Source: Collinsella sp. TM09-10AT (GTDB lineage Bacteria; Actinomycetota; Coriobacteriia; Coriobacteriales; Coriobacteriaceae). Taken from it: DNA of 64,000 nucleotides. The stretch covers positions 31,805 through 95,804 of the forward strand of contig NZ_QSOP01000008.1 of NCBI RefSeq assembly GCF_003436275.1, in the 5' to 3' direction. Below the pieces are notes generated by a model. The model was not told the origin of the DNA, made no database searches, and was given only the letters and a program-made list of their open reading frames with translations. Below, piece after piece: positions 19,269-60,439 of this stretch (position 1 is its first letter; each line of letters begins with the position of its first letter). Both the position numbers and the translations under genes were made by a program.

Positions 19269-20573
19269 ATGTCCCAGCAACGTAAATTTTTCCCCGGCTG
19301 GCTCGTGGTGGCCTCCGGCTTTGTGATCATGGCCACGTGCTACACGATTTTCGTTAACTGCATGAGCCTGTTTCAGCCGCTCATCGTAAGCGACCTGGGC
19401 ATCACGCTTGCGCAGTACAACATCTCCAACGCCATCTCCACCGTGGTGAGCGTTATCGGCTCGCTTGTCATTGGCCATGTCGCCGATAAAGTAAGCGGCC
19501 GCGTTTTGGGCTCCCTCACTGTAATCGCCACCTCTGCCGTTCTTGCCGGTATGAGCTTTGTCGGTGAGCTGTGGCAGGTCTACGTGCTCTTTGCCGTCTC
19601 GGGCTGCTTTGCCGTCGCCTCGACCCGCCTGCTCATCAGCCTGGTGACCGCCAACTGGTTTACGGCCAAGCGAGGCCTTGCCATCTCCATCGCACTTTCG
19701 GGCTCGGGCTTTGGCGGCGCTATTCTGTCTCCCATCGTGAGCTCGCTCATCGTGAGCGTTGGCTGGCGTTCCGCCTTCCTGGTGCTCGCGGCTATCTGCA
19801 TGGTGGCGGCGCTGCCCATCACGGCCTATTCCTTCCGCACCAAGCCTTCCGAGATCGGTCTTAAGCCGCTCGGCGAGAATCCAGGCGACCCGTCTGCTTC
19901 TGCCACGGGTGATAAGAACGAGAAGGCAGCCCCCGAGGTTAGCGTCGGCTGGTCTCGTATCAAGAAGAGCCCGGCATTTTGGCTGCTCGTCGTCGCCTTC
20001 CTCTTTATGGGCTTGGTCAATGGCGCCATCCTGCCCAACCAGGTTACCAACATGACGAGTGTTACCGTCAACGGTGCCAAGATCGTCACGGGCGGCCACG
20101 ACCCCATGTGGGCAGGCACCGTGCTTTCGGCCTACATGGTTACCGTCGTTATCGCCAAGATTTCGCTCGGTGTGATCTATGACCGCTTTGGCCTGCGCTT
20201 TGGCAATATCCTTGGCTCCGTTGCGTGCATTATCGCCTGCGTGGCGCTGTGTTTCCCGACGACGGACCTCGGTCCTATTGTCGCTGCTGTGAGCTTTGGT
20301 GTTGGAACGTGCATGGGCACCATCACGCCTACAATCGCCGCGTCCAAGCAGTTTGGCATGGCCGACCTCGGTAAGGTCACGGGCACCATTACCTCGCTCG
20401 AGATGGTCGGCGGCACCGTGGGCGCTATCGTCTCGGGCGTGCTGTTCGATGCCACGGGCTCCTTTGCGAGCACCTGGATCGTGTGCCTGGCGTGCTCCGT
20501 GGTCATGCTCGTGTTCCTGCTGGCATCCGAGCCCATCGCCGCCAAGCTGCGCGCAAGCGTGGCGGGGGAGTAG
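19269..20573 (+). CDS. MFS transporter, OFA (oxalate/formate antiporter-like) type
   Basis: Major facilitator of 434 residues with about 12 helices; the start MSQQRKFFPGWLVVASGFVIM and the RxGLAISIALSGSGFGGAILSP stretch (shown here in part) are typical of the OFA subfamily, which exchanges organic acids. A cytoplasmic loop near residues 195-225 is hydrophilic. AAGGAGT lies inside the end of the upstream amidohydrolase gene, so the two genes are coupled. The substrate is not known. Confidence 0.88.
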   Translation: MSQQRKFFPGWLVVASGFVIMATCYTIFVNCMSLFQPLIVSDLGITLAQYNISNAISTVVSVIGSLVIGHVADKVSGRVLGSLTVIATSAVLAGMSFVGELWQVYVLFAVSGCFAVASTRLLISLVTANWFTAKRGLAISIALSGSGFGGAILSPIVSSLIVSVGWRSAFLVLAAICMVAALPITAYSFRTKPSEIGLKPLGENPGDPSASATGDKNEKAAPEVSVGWSRIKKSPAFWLLVVAFLFMGLVNGAILPNQVTNMTSVTVNGAKIVTGGHDPMWAGTVLSAYMVTVVIAKISLGVIYDRFGLRFGNILGSVACIIACVALCFPTTDLGPIVAAVSFGVGTCMGTITPTIAASKQFGMADLGKVTGTITSLEMVGGTVGAIVSGVLFDATGSFASTWIVCLACSVVMLVFLLASEPIAAKLRASVAGE

Positions 20574-20606
20574 CGGGTCGCCGCCTATTCCTGTTTGTCT
20601 GTTCTG

Positions 20607-20672
20607 CCCGTGGCTGCCCTGGAAGCCGAATGGATGCTCGTACCGTCATTCGGTTTCCAGGGCAGCCACGGG
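20607..20672. repeat. Long inverted repeat, 24/25 bp arms
   Basis: Arms 20607-20631 and 20648-20672 match at 24 of 25 positions with a 16-base loop. The arm begins CCCGTGGCTGCCCTGGAA. No T-run follows. First of three tandem palindromes. Confidence 0.9.
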
Positions 20673-20681
20673 TCTACGAAA

Positions 20682-20745
20682 TGATCCCTTTTCCTCCGTC
20701 CCCAAGGGATCACGTAATCCGAAGGGGACGGAGGAAAAGGGATCA
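20682..20745. repeat. Long inverted repeat, 22 bp perfect arms
   Basis: Arms 20682-20703 and 20724-20745 are perfectly complementary over 22 bp, with a 20-base loop that contains its own small GGAT/ATCC stem. The sequence CTCCGTCCCCAAGGGATCA is shared with 11490-11509. Confidence 0.92.
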
Positions 20746-20751
20746 CAAACT

Positions 20752-20811
20752 GCGGCGGCGCGTCTGGCCGAACGAGCCCCCATACCCTCGTTCGGTCAGA
20801 CGCGCCGCCGC
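20752..20811. repeat. Long inverted repeat, 24/25 bp arms
   Basis: Arms 20752-20776 and 20787-20811 match at 24 of 25 positions with a 10-base loop. The arm begins GCGGCGGCGCGTCTGG. Third of three tandem palindromes; it ends 66 bases before the hisS start. Confidence 0.9.
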
Positions 20812-20876
20812 GTTGCTGCTTTGTGCCGTATAATGTCCACTACCTATGACGCGATACAAAAGAAAGGTGTTTGCCC

Positions 20877-22283: not shown

Positions 22284-22446
22284 TTGTGTATGCCGTCCAC
22301 CGAGAAATACGACCATTTAGAGCAAAACCCTTGCAATGCAGAAAATACTTTTGTGTGGTAAAGCGCAATCAGTATCGAAAGTATTTCGCAAGCGCCTATA
22401 ATGAATACCGCATGTTACGTGCATAGAAGGAGGAATGGGAGGAAAC

Positions 22447-25260
22447 GTGGCTGAGAACCTAAGCAACCAGTCTGTACCCGAAGCCGCGGCGCGCGTCGCT
22501 GCCGTGGTCAACCGCCTCGTTAACCGAATCGGCTCGAATGCCGAGTCCAGGGAGCGTCTCGCCGAGATCGAGATCCCCGAGGAGCTGCGCGACAATCTGG
22601 CGCTGTTCCTGCGCCTGGAGCGTCGTGTGCTTAGCGAGTATGATCCTGAGATCGCGGACCTGTTCGACAAGATCCTGTCGGCCGAGATTGTGGCCAATGC
22701 CGGCAACCCCGGTACCCGCGCTGCCGACGAGGCCGTCGACGAGCAGGGCGTGCCCACCGCCGACGAGCCCACCGCCGTGGCATTCCGTGAGGTCGTCGAT
22801 TTGATCGACAGCCTGCCGCTCGATAAGCAGCAGGTCATCGTTCGCGCCTTTACGAGCTTCTTCCACCTGGCAAACCTGTCGGAGGAGAACTACCGTGTGG
22901 CGCAGCTGCGCGAGCGCGAGGCCGGCGCATCGACCGATACCGAGGTCGATCCCGCCAACGAGCTCACCGTCGCCTATCACCAGTTGGTAAACGAGATGGG
23001 TGTCGAGGGCGCCAACGAGCTGCTCAGCAAGCTCGAGTTCCACCCTGTCTTTACCGCACATCCCACCGAGGCCCGTCGCAAGGCCGTCGAGGGCAAGATT
23101 CGCCGTATCTCCAATCTGCTGGAGGAGCGTCCGCGTCTGGGCGGCTCCGACCTAGTGGAGAACGAGCGCCATATGCTGCAGGAGATCGACGCCCTGGTGC
23201 GTACGAGCCCCATCGCGCTCAAGAAGCCCACGCCGGTCGAGGAAGCCGATACCATCATCGACATCTTCGATAACACGCTGTTCGACGTTATCCCCGTCAT
23301 CTATCGTCGTTTTGACGACTGGGTGCTGGGCGACAAGGCCGGTACCGTGCCGCCGCTGTGCCCGGCGTTCTTCCATCCCGGCAGCTGGATCGGTTCCGAC
23401 CGCGACGGTAACCCCAACGTCACCGCCAAGGTGAGCCGTGAGGTCGCCGCCAAGTATTTCACCCATATGGTGCTCAAGCTCGAGGACAAGTGCCGCCGCA
23501 TCGGCCGCAACCTCACGCTCGAGGCCACCTACAGCAAGCCGTCTGCCGAGCTCATCAACCTGTGGAACCATCAGGTCGAGATGAGCACCCAGTACACGGC
23601 ACGCGCCGAGCTGATCTCCGAGCACGAGCCGCATCGCGCCGTCATGCTCGTCATGGCAGACCGACTCAACGCCACCGTCCGTCGCATCACCGACACCATG
23701 TACCACAGCGCCGATGAGTTCTTGGATGACCTGCGTGTCGTTCAGCGCTCCCTGGCCGCCTGCGGTGCCGTCCGTGCTGCCTACGGCCCGGTCCAGACCA
23801 TCATCTGGCAGGTCGAGTCCTTCGGCTTCCATATGGTCGAGATGGAGTTCCGTCAGCACTCCGTGGTGCACGCCCGCGCCCTCAAGGATATTCACGAGAA
23901 CGGTATCCATGGTGATTTGCAGCCCATGACGCGCGAGGTCATCGACACCTTCCGCGCTATCGGCTCCATCCAAAAGCGCTACGGCAAGAAGATGGCGCAC
24001 CGCTACATCATCTCGTTCACCAAGAGCGCTCAGCATGTGGCCGACGTCTTTGAGCTTGCCCACCTGTCCTTTGCGCACGAGGAGGACGTGCCCGAGCTCG
24101 ACGTGATCCCGCTGTTCGAGCAGCTCGAGGACCTCGAGGGCTGCGTCGACGTGCTCGACCAGATGCTTACGCTGCCCGTGGTGCAAAAGCGCCTTGCCCA
24201 GACCAACCGCCGCATGGAGGTCATGCTGGGCTATTCCGACTCCTCTAAGGATGCCGGTCCTACCACGGCCATGCTCGCGCTGCACTCCGCGCAGGAGCGC
24301 ATTGCCAAGTGGGCCGAGAAGAACGATATCGACCTGGTGCTCATGCACGGTCGCGGCGGTGCCGTGGGCCGTGGCGGCGGTCCGGCCAACAAGGCCGTGC
24401 TGGCGCAGCCCAAGGGTTCGGTCAACTGCTTCTTTAAGCTCACCGAGCAGGGCGAGGTCATCTTTGCCCGTTACGGCAACCGTACGCTGGCTCAGCGCCA
24501 TGTTGAGTCCGTTGCCGCCGCAACGCTTTTGCAGTCGGCCCCGAGCGTCGAGAAGACCAACACCGAGACCACGCAGAAGTTCTGGGATATGGCCGAGAAG
24601 CTCAACGCCGTAAGTCACGAGCGCTATCTGGACCTGCTGAACACCGAGGACTTTACACCGTGGTTCTCGACCGTGACGCCGCTGACCGAGGTCGGTCTGC
24701 TGCCGATCGGCTCGCGTCCCGCCAAGCGCGGTTTGGGTGCCAAGTCGCTCGACGACCTGCGTACCATTCCGTGGATCTTCAGCTGGAGCCAGGCGCGCAT
24801 CAATCTGGCCGCCTGGTACGGCCTGGGTACCGCCTGCGAGCAGTTTGGCGATCTGGACCAGCTTAAGGCTGCCTACCAGGAGTGGCCGTTCTTCCGCACG
24901 TTCATCGACAACATCGAGATGTCGATCGCCAAGACCGACCAGCGCATCGCCAAGATGTACCTGCACCTGGGCGATCGCCAGGATTTGTCCGAGAAGGTCT
25001 TCACCGAGATGCAGCTCACGCGTAAGTGGGTTCTTGCCATCGTCGGTGACGAATGGCCGCTGCAGCGCCGCCGTGTGCTCGGCTGCGCCGTCCGTGTGCG
25101 TAATCCCTACGTCGACGCCCTGTCCATCGCCCAGGTTCGCGCCCTTCGCGAGGTGCGTATGAACCAGGACGAGATGGCCGAGGAGAAGAAGGCCGAGTAC
25201 ATGAGCCTGATTCTTTCGACTGTGACCGGCGTTTCGGCAGGATTGCAAAACACGGGGTAA
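22447..25260 (+). CDS. ppc: Phosphoenolpyruvate carboxylase
   Basis: Anaplerotic enzyme that carboxylates PEP to oxaloacetate, 937 residues. Catalytic landmarks are VFTAHPTEARRKAV (catalytic His), GSDRDGNPNVT, MLGYSDSSKDAGPT, HGRGGAVGRGGGP and the invariant C-terminal QNTG. GTG 22447 (giving VAENLSNQ) is preferred, with ATG 22435 as an in-frame alternative; AGGAGGA directly abuts 22435 and a second GGGAGGA abuts 22447. Monocistronic; a strong nested hairpin follows. Confidence 0.96.
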   Translation: MAENLSNQSVPEAAARVAAVVNRLVNRIGSNAESRERLAEIEIPEELRDNLALFLRLERRVLSEYDPEIADLFDKILSAEIVANAGNPGTRAADEAVDEQGVPTADEPTAVAFREVVDLIDSLPLDKQQVIVRAFTSFFHLANLSEENYRVAQLREREAGASTDTEVDPANELTVAYHQLVNEMGVEGANELLSKLEFHPVFTAHPTEARRKAVEGKIRRISNLLEERPRLGGSDLVENERHMLQEIDALVRTSPIALKKPTPVEEADTIIDIFDNTLFDVIPVIYRRFDDWVLGDKAGTVPPLCPAFFHPGSWIGSDRDGNPNVTAKVSREVAAKYFTHMVLKLEDKCRRIGRNLTLEATYSKPSAELINLWNHQVEMSTQYTARAELISEHEPHRAVMLVMADRLNATVRRITDTMYHSADEFLDDLRVVQRSLAACGAVRAAYGPVQTIIWQVESFGFHMVEMEFRQHSVVHARALKDIHENGIHGDLQPMTREVIDTFRAIGSIQKRYGKKMAHRYIISFTKSAQHVADVFELAHLSFAHEEDVPELDVIPLFEQLEDLEGCVDVLDQMLTLPVVQKRLAQTNRRMEVMLGYSDSSKDAGPTTAMLALHSAQERIAKWAEKNDIDLVLMHGRGGAVGRGGGPANKAVLAQPKGSVNCFFKLTEQGEVIFARYGNRTLAQRHVESVAAATLLQSAPSVEKTNTETTQKFWDMAEKLNAVSHERYLDLLNTEDFTPWFSTVTPLTEVGLLPIGSRPAKRGLGAKSLDDLRTIPWIFSWSQARINLAAWYGLGTACEQFGDLDQLKAAYQEWPFFRTFIDNIEMSIAKTDQRIAKMYLHLGDRQDLSEKVFTEMQLTRKWVLAIVGDEWPLQRRRVLGCAVRVRNPYVDALSIAQVRALREVRMNQDEMAEEKKAEYMSLILSTVTGVSAGLQNTG

Positions 25261-25283: not shown

Positions 25284-25410
25284 GGGACCCGATGGGATTC
25301 CCTCTGAATGCGTCCTCGCACTTGAAGCCCCCTTATCCTGCTCCTTCGGAGTTGCGGATAAGGGGGCTTCGTGCTGCGGAATGCATTCAGAGGGAAACCC
25401 ATCGGGTCCC
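25284..25410. repeat. Nested double palindrome (outer 27/28 bp, inner 15 bp)
   Basis: The outer arms 25284-25311 and 25383-25410 match at 27 of 28 positions. Inside, after a 12-base spacer GTCCTCGCACTT, an inner perfect 15-bp stem (25324-25338 with 25356-25370) carries a loop with CTCC-TTC-GGAG; a second 12-base spacer GTGCTGCGGAAT leads to the right outer arm. The layout is the same as at 27889-28015. It may also stop ppc transcription. Confidence 0.92.
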
Positions 25411-25411
25411 T

Positions 25412-25600
25412 TCGTCCTCGGTCTTCGGGGATTACAGCTGAGGGGAGAATGGCGCGCTTCGCGTTTAATGTGGGGTGCGGCGAGGGCTTCTTGCGTCCTG
25501 CGGAGTGTGCCTAAAAGTAAACTGATGGCGGGCCCTGCGATGTCCGGTCTTTGACGGATTACTGCTGGGGAAAAGATAGCGCGCTTCGCGCGTTTTGGAT
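25412..25600. repeat. Degraded relatives of the nested palindrome and an imperfect direct repeat
   Basis: GCTTCTTGCGTCCTGCGGAG at 25486-25505 is identical to 27966-27985, and the next 29 bases (25507-25535) resemble the right outer arm at 27987-28015, so this is a solo right half. In addition 25412-25477 and 25538-25600 form an imperfect direct repeat (shared words CGGTCTT, GGATTAC, GCGCGCTTCGCG). Confidence 0.7.
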
Positions 25601-25649
25601 GGGGTCTATCCTGGTGGCGCATTTGGCGCTTCTCACCTTACGACTGTGG

Positions 25650-25684
25650 CGGCCGCGGTCCTGTTTGGGATCGCGGTCGTTTTG
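25650..25684 (+). terminator. Probable terminator-like hairpin upstream of larA
   Basis: CGGCCGCGGTCC at 25650-25661 can pair with the stretch ending GATCGCGGTCG at 25679 (two G-T type differences), followed by TTTTGTTG. It may end read-through from ppc before the larA promoter. Confidence 0.5.
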
Positions 25685-25805
25685 TTGTGGGTCAAATATG
25701 AACGTTGTGTTAATGAGTCGGTAGACGGTGGTGTTTTTCGGTGAGCGGCGTATCCTTCCAACGGTTTATCTAGTGTGTCAGTTGAAAGGAAGAGGGCGCT
25801 CGTCA

Positions 25806-27083
25806 TTGTTTGAATGTGAACTGCCGTTTGACCACAAGACGTTGCATCTGGAACTCGAGGATAAGAACTTCGCGGGTGTGATGGAAGGTCATCAAAACGA
25901 GTTTAAGACCACGAAATCGCAGGAAGAGCTGGTGGAGGAGTCGCTTGCCAACCCTTACGGCTCGCCTTCGCTCGAGGAGCTTTGTGCTGGCAAGAAGGAT
26001 ATTGTCATCATTAGCTCAGATCATACGCGTCCCGTTCCCTCGCGTGTGACGATGCCTATTCTGCTGCATCACATCCACTCCGCTGCGCCTGAGGCGCGCG
26101 TTCGCATTCTGGTTGCTACGGGTATGCATCGTCCGTCGACGCACGAGGAGCTCGTCAACAAGTACGGCGAGGAGATCGTTGCCAACGAAGAAATCGTTAT
26201 GCACGTCGCGACTGACGACAGCATGATGAAAAAGATCGGCACCCTGCCTTCTGGTGGCGAGTGCATCATCAACAAGATCGCTGCCGATTGCGATCTGCTG
26301 CTTGCCGAGGGCTTTATTGAGCCGCACTTCTTTGCCGGTTTCTCTGGTAGCCGCAAGTCCGTCCTGCCTGGCATCGCCAGCTACAAGACCATCATGTACA
26401 ACCACAACGGTCAGTTTGTGAACGATTCCCACTCGCGTGCCGGCAACCTGTGCCACAACCACGTGAGCGAGGACATGTTTGCCGCCGCCGAGATGGCTCA
26501 CCTTGCCTTTGTGCTCAACGTGGTGCTCAACGGCAAGCACGAGGTCATTGGCTCCTTTGCCGGCGACATCCACAAGGCGCACGAGGCTGGCTGCGAGTTC
26601 GTGAAGAGCCTTGCCGGCGTTGAGCCCGTCGAGTGCGAGATCGCCATTACCACTAACGGCGGCTACCCCCTCGATCAGAACATCTATCAGGCTGTGAAGG
26701 GCATGTGCGCTGCCGAGGCCACGCTTCCCGAGGGCGGCGTGATCATCGACGTCGCCGGTTGTGCCGACGGTCACGGCGGCGAGGGCTTCTATCACAACAT
26801 CGCCGACAACGATCCGGCAGAGTTTGAGCGCGCCTGCATCGATCGTCCTAAGGACGAGACCCTGCCCGATCAGTGGACGAGCCAGATCTTTGCCCGCATC
26901 CTGGCGCATCACCCTGTGATCATGGTCACCGACCTGTGCGATCACCAGATGCTCAAGGATATGCACATGACGCCGGTCAACACTATCGAGGAAGCGCTCA
27001 AGCTCGCCTTTGAGATGAAGGGTGCCGATGCCAAGGTCGCCGTCATCCCCGATGGCCTGGGTGTTGTCGTCGCACAGCACTAG
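25806..27083 (+). CDS. larA: Nickel-dependent lactate racemase LarA
   Basis: Cytosolic enzyme of 425 residues that interconverts D- and L-lactate using the nickel-pincer nucleotide cofactor. With a TTG start at 25806, preceded by AAAGGAAGAGGG, the key residues fall exactly at the numbers known for Lactobacillus plantarum LarA: D72 and R75 in SDHTRPVPS, H108 in ATGMHRPS, H174 in EPHFFAGF, K184 in FSGSRK (cofactor attachment) and H200 in YNHN (nickel ligand). That match is the main reason for choosing this start over the in-frame upstream codon at 25728. A channel gene (larD) follows, and larB/larC are encoded on the opposite strand 1.6 kb away. A close LarA homologue acting on another 2-hydroxy acid cannot be excluded. 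Confidence 0.93.
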   Translation: MFECELPFDHKTLHLELEDKNFAGVMEGHQNEFKTTKSQEELVEESLANPYGSPSLEELCAGKKDIVIISSDHTRPVPSRVTMPILLHHIHSAAPEARVRILVATGMHRPSTHEELVNKYGEEIVANEEIVMHVATDDSMMKKIGTLPSGGECIINKIAADCDLLLAEGFIEPHFFAGFSGSRKSVLPGIASYKTIMYNHNGQFVNDSHSRAGNLCHNHVSEDMFAAAEMAHLAFVLNVVLNGKHEVIGSFAGDIHKAHEAGCEFVKSLAGVEPVECEIAITTNGGYPLDQNIYQAVKGMCAAEATLPEGGVIIDVAGCADGHGGEGFYHNIADNDPAEFERACIDRPKDETLPDQWTSQIFARILAHHPVIMVTDLCDHQMLKDMHMTPVNTIEEALKLAFEMKGADAKVAVIPDGLGVVVAQH

Positions 27084-27132
27084 TGCGCGGCTTAAACGAA
27101 TCGTTTATAACCGACAAGAAAGATAAGGTTTT

Positions 27133-27864
27133 ATGCTTACCAAACTCCTCTGCGAATTCGGCGCAACGGCCCTCATGATCGTCTTTGGCGTGGGTGTTCA
27201 CTGCGATACCGTGCTCAAGGGCACCAAGTATCAGGGCTCCGGCCATATGTTTGCCATCACCACCTGGTCCTTTGGCATCTCGGTCTGCCTGTTTGTCTTT
27301 GGTGGCGCTGTGTGCATGAACCCCGCCATGGTGCTTGCCCAGTGCATCGTCGGCCTGGTGCCGTGGGGCAACTGCATCCCCTTCATGCTTGCCGATATGC
27401 TCGGCGGCTTTGTGGGTGCCGTGATCGCTTGGTTTATGTATGCCGATGAGTTCAAGGCTTCCGAGGACGTCGTCGACCCCATTGCCCAGCGCAACATCTT
27501 CTCGACCAACCCCACCACCGAGGGCACGAACTATGCTCGTAACTTCTTCTGCGAGGCTATCTGCACCTTCGTGTTCATCAGCGCCATCCTTGCTGCCGCT
27601 AGCCGCGCCGGCGAGAACGTTCTGATGCTCGCAATCTGCGTCGGCCTGATCGTTTGGGCTGTTGGCATGGGCATGGGCGGCATCACCGGCTTCGCCATGA
27701 ACCAGGCTCGTGACCTTGGTCCTCGCATGGCCTATCAGGTGCTGCCGATCAAGAACAAGGCCGACAACAACTGGAAGTATGGTCTGCTTGTTCCTGGCAT
27801 CGCGCCGTTTGTCGGTGCTATTGTGGCCGCGCTGTTTGTGCATGGCTTCTTGGGCATGTTCTAG
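27133..27864 (+). CDS. larD: MIP-family channel, LarD-like (lactate/glycerol facilitator)
   Basis: Membrane channel of 243 residues in the aquaporin/glycerol facilitator family with about six helices and two half-helix loops. The first loop has the canonical NPA (MNPAMVLAQ). The second has NQA instead of NPA, within GFAMNQARDLGPRMAYQVLP, keeping the NxARDxGPR of glycerol facilitators. It follows larA by 49 bases on the same strand, which supports a role in lactate passage as for LarD of L. plantarum (established family, inferred here). Ribosome site AAGATAAGG precedes ATG 27133. Confidence 0.85.
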   Translation: MLTKLLCEFGATALMIVFGVGVHCDTVLKGTKYQGSGHMFAITTWSFGISVCLFVFGGAVCMNPAMVLAQCIVGLVPWGNCIPFMLADMLGGFVGAVIAWFMYADEFKASEDVVDPIAQRNIFSTNPTTEGTNYARNFFCEAICTFVFISAILAAASRAGENVLMLAICVGLIVWAVGMGMGGITGFAMNQARDLGPRMAYQVLPIKNKADNNWKYGLLVPGIAPFVGAIVAALFVHGFLGMF

Positions 27865-28170
27865 TCCAAGACAATTGATATAACGCCCGGGTCCGGCATA
27901 GGTTAACTTTCCGCCGCGTCCTCGGACATGCAAGAAGCTCCCGCTGCGCACTTCGTGCGGCGGGAGCTTCTTGCGTCCTGCGGAGTGCGGCGGAAAGTTA
28001 ACCTATGCCGGACCCTGCGGGAATCCAGTTGCGTTCGAACAAGCAACCAACATATATATCTGAATTTGAATGTGGTGGGCACATTGTTGCTAGGCGCTTT
28101 GAGGTGCGAGTGACACTTTGGGAGGCGTGGCGCCCTGGGTTGGGGTGATGCTTTGGGATGAGCTTCTTGC
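27865..28170. other. Convergent intergenic region with nested palindrome
   Basis: This 306-bp gap lies between the convergent ends of larD and the tetR gene. It is mostly occupied by the nested palindrome 27889-28015; the remaining 28016-28170 holds no gene or clear repeat that I can support. Confidence 0.6.
27889..28015. repeat. Nested double palindrome (outer 29 bp perfect, inner 15 bp perfect)
   Basis: Outer arms 27889-27917 and 27987-28015 pair perfectly over 29 bp. A 12-base spacer GTCCTCGGACAT leads to the inner perfect 15-bp stem (27930-27944 with 27960-27974), whose loop forms CGCAC-TTC-GTGCG; the spacer GTCCTGCGGAGT leads back to the outer arm. Total length, spacers and apex follow the element at 25284-25410, although the stem sequences are unrelated. 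Confidence 0.95.
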
Positions 28171-28710
28171 TTAGTTGAAGAGAGGCTTAATGGCTGATAG
28201 GTAATCTTTGGCTACGTCGGCTTTGTTGGCTTGGAAGTTGTGCCAGGCCCACCATTGGACCATTCCTACGAAGCTTGAGGCTATGTGGTGTAGTAGGAAG
28301 CTTCGGTCCATGGTGGCGGCGGGGCCGTTTGGGTCGGTGGGGACGGTTTCGGCTGCTCGTGACATGATGGTCTTGCGTAAGCAGTCGGCGAAGACGCGTG
28401 AGCCGGCGCCGGCTACGAGGGCTCGGACGCCCTGGCGGCGCTCCCAGAGGTTGTTGAGGATATGCTCGACCTGCACGAGTGGGTCGTCGAGCGGTGTGCC
28501 ATCGTCGTCGAGAGCGTGGGTACAGATGTCGCTCACGAGCTCGGACAGTAGGTCGTCTTTGCTCTTAAAGAGACCGTAGAATGTCGCGCGGCCTACGTGA
28601 GCGCGCGCGATGATGTCGCCGACGGTGATCTTGCTGTAGTCCTCCTCGCGCAGGAGCTCGGAGAATGCTGCGACGATGGCGGCGCGGCTTTTTGCCTTGC
28701 GGGCATCCAT
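28171..28710 (-). CDS. TetR-family transcriptional regulator of the lar locus
   Basis: DNA-binding regulator of 179 residues. The N-terminal helix-turn-helix is KITVGDIIARAHVGRATFYGLFKSKDDLL; the C-terminal ligand domain is of the TetR_C type with WERRQGVRALVAGAGSRVF and a Trp-rich end (GMVQWWAWHNFQ). The ATG lies 2 bases after the larC stop, so larB-larC-tetR is a tight operon and the regulator probably controls the lar genes, perhaps in response to lactate (inference). A candidate operator lies upstream of larB at 30468-30501. Confidence 0.9.
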   Translation of the reverse strand: MDARKAKSRAAIVAAFSELLREEDYSKITVGDIIARAHVGRATFYGLFKSKDDLLSELVSDICTHALDDDGTPLDDPLVQVEHILNNLWERRQGVRALVAGAGSRVFADCLRKTIMSRAAETVPTDPNGPAATMDRSFLLHHIASSFVGMVQWWAWHNFQANKADVAKDYLSAIKPLFN

Positions 28711-28712
28711 GG

Positions 28713-29630
28713 CTATGCGTCCGTGTGAACGAGCAGGCAGCGGAGCGTACCGGAGCAACCCTCGTAGGGGCGCTTACCGGCGCCGTAGCCGACGGCCTCG
28801 ATGCGGTAGCGGGCCGGCAGGTGCTCGGACGTGCGCAGTGCGGCGACGATGGCGGCGCCCGTGGGCGTCACGAGCTCACCGGCGACCGGCGCGGGCGTGA
28901 GGGCGATATTGCCCGCTTGGCACAGGTTGACGACAGCGGGGACAGGAATGGGCATAAGGCCGTGGGCACAGCGGATGGTGCCGTGACCCTCGGAGAGCGA
29001 CTCGACCACGATGTCCTCAATACCTAGGTCATCGAGGCAGATGGCGACAGAGCAGACGTCGACGATGGAGTCGATGGCGCCCACCTCGTGGAACATGACG
29101 GTCTCGGTCGTTTTGCCGTGGGCCATGGCCTCGGCGGCGGCGAGCGCGGTAAAGATGGCGAGCGCGCGACGCTTGGCGCCATCGCTTAGCTGCGAGTCAT
29201 CGATGATGGCGGTGACATCCGCCAAAGAACGGTGGTGATGGTGGTGGGCGTGATGGTGACCCTCGTGGCCATGACCGTGGGCCTCATGGTCATGCTCGTG
29301 GCAGTGCTCGTGTTCGTGCTCGCCATGATCATGATGGTAGTGCTCATGCTCATGTGTGTGCTCGGTGTCCGCTTCGTTGCCGTAGAGCCAGACCATGTCG
29401 TGGTCGTGGTTCTCGAGTTCCTCAGCCAGCTGAACATCAAAGTCGCAGGCGTCGATGCCATGCTTGTTTACGCGTGTAACGGCAATCTCAAAGCCGCCGA
29501 CCGGCAGCGTGGCGAGCTGGTCGCGCAGATGCTCCTCGCTGGCGCCCAGGTCGAGCAGGGCCGCGACGGTCATGTCGCCGCTGATGCCCGAGGTGCCGTC
29601 GATGATAAGCGTGTGCTGATGGTTGGACAT
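28713..29630 (-). CDS. larC: LarC, nickel-pincer cofactor cyclometallase, N-terminal part only
   Basis: Enzyme of nickel-pincer nucleotide synthesis that inserts nickel in a CTP-dependent step. The 305 residues start MSNHQHTLIIDGTSGISGDM and contain FHEVGAIDSIVDVCSVA and ELVTPTGAAIVAAL, all LarC1 hallmarks. Between about residues 73 and 134 lies an insert with roughly 26 histidines, probably nickel-binding. Full-length LarC is usually about 400 residues, or is made by frameshift between larC1 and larC2. Here the protein stops after GYGAGKRPYEGCSGTLRC, and the tetR start follows within 2 bases, so the C-terminal domain is missing at this locus. AAGGAG precedes the ATG. Confidence 0.9.
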   Translation of the reverse strand: MSNHQHTLIIDGTSGISGDMTVAALLDLGASEEHLRDQLATLPVGGFEIAVTRVNKHGIDACDFDVQLAEELENHDHDMVWLYGNEADTEHTHEHEHYHHDHGEHEHEHCHEHDHEAHGHGHEGHHHAHHHHHRSLADVTAIIDDSQLSDGAKRRALAIFTALAAAEAMAHGKTTETVMFHEVGAIDSIVDVCSVAICLDDLGIEDIVVESLSEGHGTIRCAHGLMPIPVPAVVNLCQAGNIALTPAPVAGELVTPTGAAIVAALRTSEHLPARYRIEAVGYGAGKRPYEGCSGTLRCLLVHTDA

Positions 29631-31173: not shown

Positions 31174-31429
31174 GGCGGGCCTTTCCGAGTGCTGTTTTAT
31201 TGGGGCATATTGTCGCACGTGACGAGCGCGGGCGGGTGTCACGGCGCGTCAATTGTTTCGTCTCCGTCAAGTCTTTGGGCAGGAGCTACTTTTTCGCGGC
31301 ACATCGACGCGAGTGCGATAAGATAGAACGCCATGTCTGGCTGCGCGGTTTACGCAGGCTGGGCAAATCTGTACGACGCCGCCCGGAACGACACGGGGCG
31401 GCACAGATCCATAAAGGAGGATCACTGGT
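31174..31429. promoter_or_regulatory. Divergent intergenic region between serB and aspS
   Basis: The 256-bp gap must hold promoters for both divergent genes. I looked for a T-box specifier stem and anti-terminator sequence before aspS and do not see one. AAAGGAGG at 31413-31420 is the aspS ribosome site. Confidence 0.3.
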
Positions 31430-58097: not shown

Positions 58098-58122
58098 GGG
58101 GGTGCAATCGGGGCATGAAAAG

Positions 58123-58187
58123 GCTGCGGCGCCGCTTGGAGGAAAAAACCGGAAGCAAGGGTCCATTCCTCCAGACGGCGCCGCAGC
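58123..58187. repeat. Inverted repeat, 19/21 bp arms
   Basis: Arms 58123-58143 and 58167-58187 pair at 19 of 21 positions (outer 12 bp GCTGCGGCGCCG perfect) with a 23-base loop. Confidence 0.8.
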
Positions 58188-58250
58188 TGTTTTGGTGGCT
58201 CGGCTTTTGTCGAAGTGGCTCAGCTGGGCGCGACTGCCAGCCGAGTAGGC

Positions 58251-58351
58251 AAAGCGGCTCGGGCGCGTGTCGCTTCCGTCACGTTCTATCAGCATACAAG
58301 ACGGTTTTGGTTCTTGTTCGTGACGGAAACGGCGCGCTTCCGAGCCGCTTT
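58251..58351. repeat. Long two-helix inverted repeat
   Basis: Arms 58251-58283 and 58319-58351. The outer 12 bp (AAAGCGGCTCGG) and the inner 10 bp (TTCCGTCACG) pair perfectly; about ten bases between them do not, forming an internal loop. Confidence 0.75.
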
Positions 58352-58355
58352 AAAA

Positions 58356-60381: not shown

Positions 60382-60439
60382 GCGTTGGCACGGAGGTGCC
60401 AAGACGGTAGGGTACATCTTTGCACCTCCGTGCCAACGC
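60382..60439. repeat. Perfect 18-bp inverted repeat upstream of kdgK
   Basis: Arms 60382-60399 and 60422-60439 (GCGTTGGCACGGAGGTGC and its complement) pair perfectly with a 22-base loop. It lies between the kdgK start and the operator, so it would be in the 5' leader of kdgK mRNA. Confidence 0.92.

Follow-up and report, generated by a model that had tools for sequence, protein, structure and literature searches.

Intrinsic terminators place a strong hairpin some tens of nucleotides past the stop codon in the sense orientation, and tail-poor hairpin terminators exist as one kind of them. Here we describe two elements, E1 and E2, in a 64,000-nucleotide stretch of Collinsella sp. TM09-10AT (contig NZ_QSOP01000008.1, positions 31,805 to 95,804; hereafter the window), a member of a human gut genus. 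These elements resemble intrinsic terminators in position and orientation, and T-tailed hairpins stand at some of the orthologous ppc and groEL sites; unlike such terminators, they are 127-nt two-storey hairpins with a conserved internal loop and a U-poor tail, and inner hairpins are common to several loci. We propose that E1 and E2 probably represent a Coriobacteriaceae family of large 3'-end hairpins descended from, or standing in for, intrinsic terminators; the comparison of sequences suggests that they are most likely terminator hairpins to which a second storey was added and from which most of the U-tract was lost.

Several described repeats share part of this plan. The repetitive extragenic palindromic sequences (REP, REPIN) with their RAYT transposases are multi-copy, intergenic, imperfect palindromes like the present elements, which in contrast have unconserved stems and a conserved internal loop, are oriented with genes and lie close to one of ten inspected Y1 transposase loci. 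The enterobacterial repetitive intergenic consensus, or intergenic repeat unit (ERIC/IRU), is about 127 bp long and conserved in sequence throughout; it is alike in length and palindromic nature, but going by its description it is set apart from a family in which the near-invariant part comprises about 13 nt at the junctions. Collinsella-1 RNA (RF01700) is likewise a structured element in Collinsella, yet it gives at most one match per genome and lies elsewhere (of four genomes searched three matched, two of them above the cut-off), and identity with it was rejected on account of the different locus. Template switching, or quasipalindrome correction, as source and keeper of stems has been described in PMC8794818 for RNA genes, among them those of rRNA and microRNA; it accounts for perfect stems and for multi-base changes in both arms, and in the present case its target would be a dispersed family of bacterial 3' ends. 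No description of this hairpin family was found in the open full-text literature, and a literature search returned no work on Collinsella transcription termination. PMC8040213 lists 250 palindromic candidate structured RNAs from human microbiomes, 230 of them predicted terminator stem-loops, and the present family may be among these candidates, unnamed.

Architecture, distribution and placement of the hairpins

An alignment of 33 copies, from which a covariance model (CM) was built, shows that the near-invariant part is small: GTCCTC before and TGCGGA after the inner hairpin form an asymmetric internal loop between an outer stem of about 29 bp and the variable inner hairpin, and column by column it is TCCTCG on the left side and CTGCGGA on the right side that are invariant or nearly so. 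Arms and spacers of E1 and E2, when re-derived, agreed with the coordinates and nested geometry given in a preliminary description of the window, and RNA folding compared with shuffled sequences gave z scores of -15.5 and -16.6. That description had presented the spacers as conserved internal loops; they are conserved, but they are not open and largely pair with each other (GGAC/GTCC in E2 and GCAC/GTGC in E1, a covarying pair), and conserved bulges remain. The stems, which it had called unrelated, are indeed variable, although a weak consensus GGGnCCCnCAnGGGnTTACCTCCCAAAnC is common to the 33 aligned copies, and the inner stem of exactly 15 bp is true of E1 and E2 but measures, by eye, from about 3 to 25 bp in other species. 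In the other Collinsella species of loci L250-L255 (G and L numbers denote compared genomes and fetched loci) the inner hairpin is down to about 3-10 bp while junction and outer stem are kept. Altogether 142 copies were found and collapsed to 135 distinct ones; the outer stem is 28-29 bp long in 97 of the 135. Two other genera, and also some Collinsella species (G042, and G013 at groEL), carry a second conserved loop between outer stem and junction, for example CTGCTCGGACA 5' of GTCCTC and ACTCGCGA 3' of TGCGGA in L365. The outer foot consists of TCC or ACC 5' of the stem in 73 of 134 copies and TGCG or TACG 3' of it in 71 of 134. It resembles the inner junction, and a single plan may be repeated in the two storeys.

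Two matches to the junction pattern CCTCGNAC...GTNCTGCGGA occur in the window, where 100 shuffles give an expectation of 0.00. A CM scan of the window gave, beyond E1, E2 and their antisense matches, a next match of at most 31.8 bits, and E2 is one of two inverted repeats in the 64 kb with at least 20 perfect pairs and a gap of at most 110 nt. G001, the genome nearest to the window (36% of words in common), has 8 matches to the junction pattern and none to the reversed control; among the 43 genomes of the genus, 23 contain the pattern, usually with between 5 and 10 matches each, while the control has a single match in 4 of the 43. CM matches occur in 36 of the 43 genus genomes, where antisense hits on these palindromes are probably counted in the per-genome copy numbers, and across the order in 48 of 247 genomes and 8 of 99 genera. 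Full-length copies of at least 95 bits, found with looser filters, number 12, 13, 13, 13, 15 and 15 in six genomes, a hand count that includes some copies from which the model was built. The preliminary description had foreseen a family with many intergenic copies, conserved junctions and compensating stem changes, and had named a lack of further copies or of spacer conservation as the sign of a coincidence or a single duplication; the CM search bore out the family, with 12-15 full copies in each of these six genomes. A short-apex pattern is abundant in two other genera (26, 26 and 25 matches in G095, G214 and G105 versus 1 per control); of 30 such loci that were fetched, 19 by hand count have an outer stem with 10 or more contiguous pairs, so that not every match is an element. 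A longer right motif matches 68 of 297 genomes of the order and 25 of 107 genera, with control matches in 3 genomes; outside the bacterial family many of these matches are non-palindromic and chance-like, although some in G132 and G097, from another family, are palindromic. The bare pattern returned at least 119 stretches from a genome collection, mostly by chance, with one Collinsella among the matches listed.

E1 starts 23 nt 3' of the ppc stop codon and E2 24 nt 3' of that of an aquaporin gene, both in the orientation of the gene. Gene sides were assigned with a codon-model gene caller for 165 copies, 134 of which are from the aerofaciens clade (every locus but L249-L255 and those from L318 on, with L139 of G013 counted in); the copies are distinct sequences at about 20 loci and not independent. 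None of the 165 lies inside a gene. A sense gene is found on the 5' side of 120 of the 134 clade copies, at 7-42 nt for 119 of them and at 262 nt for one, as well as of 25 of the 31 copies from other species and genera; a GC-rich hairpin just 3' of genes in the sense orientation is one mark of an intrinsic terminator. In the RefSeq annotation of one strain the model match starts 18 nt past the stop codon of pfkA and of thrB, 21 nt past that of grcA3 and 29 nt past that of the aldolase gene. The upstream genes, named by the best NCBIfam or Pfam model with some fragments below cut-off, are those for ppc, pfkA, class II aldolase, PFOR, pta, grcA, lactaldehyde reductase, ilvE, thrB, asd, groEL, oppF, a P-type ATPase, an esterase and the aquaporin, and their identity suggests high expression. 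In other genera and species they include thiC, pcrA, rpsJ and thrB, and the gene at L251 had no model match. Near tRNA-Leu(gag), inverted pairs of elements about 170 bp apart were seen at L133, L281, L294, L298 and L316, one element after oppF and its partner without a close gene on its own strand.

Terminator-like hairpins at orthologous groEL and ppc sites

Analysis of the groEL sites of 30 Coriobacteriaceae genomes by an inverted-repeat search placed the start of the best inverted repeat 25-33 nt past the stop codon in 24 of the 30 (at G014 and G038 other palindromes were picked). The plain hairpins of G037 and G039 consist of AAGGCCCCGG...CCTT followed by T-runs, namely AAGGCCCCGGG...CCTT and then TTTTCG in G037 and AAGGCCCCGGAGGG...CCTT and then TTTGCGTTT in G039. 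The long hairpins of G030, G040, G013 and G105 consist of GGAAG(G)CCCCG...TTCC followed by (C)TGCGTTT, as in G030 with GGAAGCCCCGGAGGG...TTTCC and then TGCGTTT, and the one of G013 carries the exact core. The basal stem at groEL is common to the element and to the ordinary terminator hairpin of some element-free species. The exact core is present at 7 of the 30 sites, while others have core variants or another loop. The script counts 5 or more T in 8 for 7 of the 30 tails, of which one (G001) belongs to an element. In some Collinsella species the groEL hairpins, L420 (G023), L422 (G022) and L428 (G016), have a different internal loop in common, TGTTCGA / TCTCAGAACA, possibly a second loop family.

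For ppc, 30 of 42 matches were fetched and one site cut by a contig end (L400) was dropped, leaving 29 readable sites. An element of type A or B is present at all 21 readable sites of the aerofaciens clade and at none of the 8 from other species; in 4 of those 8 the script finds a hairpin with 5 or more T in 8. At groEL and ppc the element takes the place that a T-tailed terminator hairpin has in some orthologues, part of the element-free sites being T-tailed, and the evidence for an origin from terminators looks good at groEL and fair at ppc. The preliminary description had argued against a plain terminator; this is weakened by the T-tailed hairpins that some orthologues have in this position, while the element itself is indeed mostly without a U-tract. 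It had also called for a comparison of filled with empty sites, and one near-empty site was seen, at ppc of G013 (L408), where type-B flanks are present and CTCTCA joins the end of the right arm directly, with two differences. This site may have arisen by deletion between short repeats, or it may show the state before an insertion.

If the elements act at transcript ends, transcription would halt at the hairpin or the transcript would be trimmed back to it, or the hairpin would shield the 3' end of the mRNA; the present-day element may terminate transcription or, equally well, protect the 3' end. The internal loop may be the recognition site of a protein or a structural kink. The inner hairpin was also considered as a terminator by itself and rejected: 0 of 135 copies have an internal T-tailed motif, and the inner hairpins of other genera are without a regular U-tract.

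Maintenance and turnover of the stems, and rival explanations

Alignment of the copies revealed two-sided changes at 43 of 58 pairs, with 448 two-sided cells versus 125 in shuffled alignments, and sliding the partner by one column reduced the paired cells from 95.4% to under 49%. The 27 core-proximal outer pairs of the 135 copies make up 3645 cells, of which 3554 are Watson-Crick, 30 G-T, 31 A-C and 30 other; when deviations are counted once per locus, position and type, 28 G-T, 26 A-C and 29 other events remain (G-T versus A-C, p 0.89). Selection at the RNA level is expected to favour G-U on the transcribed (sense) strand, and the sense/antisense symmetry of GT and AC provides the control for this test. 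Given that G-U shows no excess over A-C, the pairing looks maintained at the DNA level. Adjacent changes in both arms between alleles numbered 82 versus 39.9 expected (75 non-independent allele pairs). Arm-to-arm copying during replication seems to fit the stems better than RNA-level selection: we propose that pairing persists because one arm is rewritten from its partner by template switching, whereby a change in one arm would appear in both.

Half-elements stand behind a full one at ppc in L382, L385, L386, L392, L393, L401 and the window. By hand count over 290 nt, 6 of the 13 ppc sites that start with a full type A continue with the right half of B, and by hand count 7 of the 9 that start with B, the window included, continue with the right half of A; the window relic corresponds to the right half of the type-A element found at the ppc site of G001 (L008) and others. 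Grouping the inner hairpins longer than 30 nt by chained near-identity gave 23 classes, 9 of which are spread over two or more locus clusters (for one class perhaps only through a split locus). Near-identical outer left arms (at most 4 differences in 28) carry different inner classes in 47 allele pairs from 8 of 20 clusters, some of the differing classes being close relatives, and the clearest case is at the aquaporin locus, where L171 and L007 have 0 differences in the 28 positions of the outer left arm and a different inner stem. It is conceivable, though doubtful, that GTCCTC/TGCGGA is a dedicated exchange joint at which an enzyme or a replication process swaps or inserts the tip of an extruded hairpin. 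If true, these would be modular terminators with a locus-specific base and a tradable apex, evolving by tip exchange and arm-to-arm copying and not by point mutation.

A number of observations weigh against overgrown terminators whose stems are kept by arm copying. The tail is U-poor: among the 134 of 135 copies with a stem of at least 20, the first 8 nt hold 0-2 T in 85, 3-4 in 46 and 5 in 3, so canonical intrinsic termination is not expected from the sequence. In the window a further hairpin, separate from E1 and with a T-tail, lies about 390 nt beyond the ppc stop codon, and a strict T-tailed terminator follows within 350 nt downstream in 12 of the 135 copies. At convergent gene ends a T-tailed terminator is found at 4 of 34 element-bearing versus 11 of 43 other ends, a comparison that is not clean. 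Only 6 of the 30 groEL sites are by script both element-free and T-tailed, most being intermediate. Furthermore, 14 of the 134 clade copies are not behind a sense gene. They come from two sites: one is 5' of ftsE, on the strand opposite to it, and the other is beside tRNA-Leu, adjoining the oppF element. The copy at 262 nt (L279), of the same inner class as those beside tRNA-Leu, is probably a fifteenth exception from the tRNA-Leu place. Neither a tRNA nor an Rfam RNA gene was found directly upstream on the element's strand at these places in the loci searched. Lastly, close alleles differ in one arm as commonly as in both (368 versus 352 differences), indicating that correction of the arms is not immediate.

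Among the other explanations, a structured RNA whose pairing is selected at the RNA level, such as a regulatory, protein-binding 3' untranslated region motif that belongs to a regulon and takes no part in termination, is unlikely. It would account for the invariant asymmetric internal loop between variable helices, for the orientation and metabolic gene set and for the two-sided compensatory changes, but the 28 G-U against 26 A-C events in the outer stems speak against it, and no Rfam family matched at the gathering threshold: seven loci gave only tRNA, relaxed thresholds added nothing but microRNA-hairpin and a small number of other matches that scored well under gathering, and Collinsella-1 is a separate locus. 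We regard as quite unlikely a REP/REPIN-like repeat or a miniature inverted-repeat transposable element (MITE) that inserts at gene ends and whose nested hairpin is recognised by a transposase, Y1 (RAYT-type) or another, acting in trans, although the family is multi-copy and intergenic with a clade-limited expansion, Y1 genes are present in 8 of 10 genomes tested, the G013 ppc site is near-empty and one inner hairpin class can occupy several loci. Ten of the 25 Y1 matches listed were inspected (about 1.5 kb on each side, 3.3 kb), and an element was nearby in 1 of the ten; the strict pattern gave no element in G014 and G020, both of which have Y1 genes. The orientation relative to genes is non-random, and locus clustering places copies from more distant Collinsella species together with those that follow groEL, pta, thrB, asd and the P-type ATPase gene. 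The terminal arms differ between loci, leaving none of the conserved terminal repeats of insertion sequences (IS) and MITEs, and it is the internal loop that is conserved while the palindromic stem varies, the reverse of REP. With E2 as query no phage matched, and the sole match to a plasmid record was to the 0.9-Mb C. aerofaciens NZ_OY725717.1. The REP/RAYT-type element that the preliminary description had offered as one possibility is not upheld by the Y1 loci or by the orientation of the copies with the upstream gene. Very unlikely, finally, is a DNA recombination element whose tips are exchanged at the junctions by an enzyme or by short-homology template switching with no RNA role. It would fit L171 and L007, which differ in the inner hairpin although the outer left arm is identical, and the half-copies at ppc, yet it leaves the position at the stop codon, the orientation and the orthologous T-tailed hairpins unexplained, and ordinary micro-conversion could yield the same pattern.

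As to the sequences met in these searches, NZ_OY725717.1, named plasmid 6, carries ftsE/ftsX, pfkA, thrB and pflB and probably is mislabelled chromosome. Several 167-aa Y1 frames with identical or close scores, which by size we take to be IS200-like, are present in G007, G024 and G002 (L216-L218, L224), and the frame in G002 (L218) lies a few hundred nucleotides from an element.

Features of the window and significance of the family

The coding content of the window around the elements comprises ppc, larA, genes with presumed larB and larC domains, the aquaporin gene and a TetR regulator (Table 1).

Table 1. Positions of the hairpin elements and neighbouring features in the window.
Feature	Position	Strand	Remarks
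ppc (phosphoenolpyruvate carboxylase)	22435..25260	+	E1 downstream
E1, whole (type B core)	25284..25410	+	CM 111.2 bits, E1 itself in the model
E1 outer left arm	25284..25311	+	28 nt, 1 mismatch with right arm
E1 left junction	25312..25323	+	GTCCTCGCACTT, core GTCCTC
E1 inner hairpin	25324..25370	+	15-bp stem, 17-nt apex
E1 inner arms	25324-25338 / 25356-25370
E1 right junction	25371..25382	+	GTGCTGCGGAAT, core TGCGGA
E1 outer right arm	25383..25410	+
Relic half-copy of a type-A element	25475..25535	+	inner right arm, right junction and right outer arm
Ordinary terminator-like hairpin	25648..25681	+	T-rich tail, 5' of larA; lax scan
MIP-family aquaporin gene	27133..27864	+	adjoins larA, lactate operon; E2 downstream
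E2, whole (type A core)	27889..28015	+	CM 145.6 bits, E2 itself in the model
E2 outer left arm	27889..27917	+	29 perfect pairs
E2 left junction	27918..27929	+	GTCCTCGGACAT
E2 inner hairpin	27930..27974	+	15-bp stem, apex TGCGCACTTCGTGCG
E2 inner arms	27930-27944 / 27960-27974
E2 right junction	27975..27986	+	GTCCTGCGGAGT
E2 outer right arm	27987..28015	+	common foot TGCG next
TetR gene	28171-28758	-	convergent toward E2

Elsewhere in the window, three consecutive long perfect hairpins with stems of 18, 22 and 15 bp, without T-tails and without the GTCCTC/TGCGGA core, occupy 20601-20817, between an open reading frame ending at 20573 and one starting at 20871, by appearance MFS transporter-like and hisS-like, respectively. 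Further long inverted repeats without the core and with weak CM matches are at 58113-58352 and 60382-60439. The aspS RNA (RF02930) at 31335-31418 is the sole Rfam match in the window at gathering score.

Ordinary hairpins, long hairpins and two-storey hairpins with the conserved joint form a natural series across shared orthologous positions. This makes directly testable by what route terminators of bacteria acquire and alter their stems, and also whether stem covariation can come from template switching of DNA and not from selection on RNA. Since strong covariation occurs here without a G-U signature, covariation alone can mislead searches for RNA motifs.

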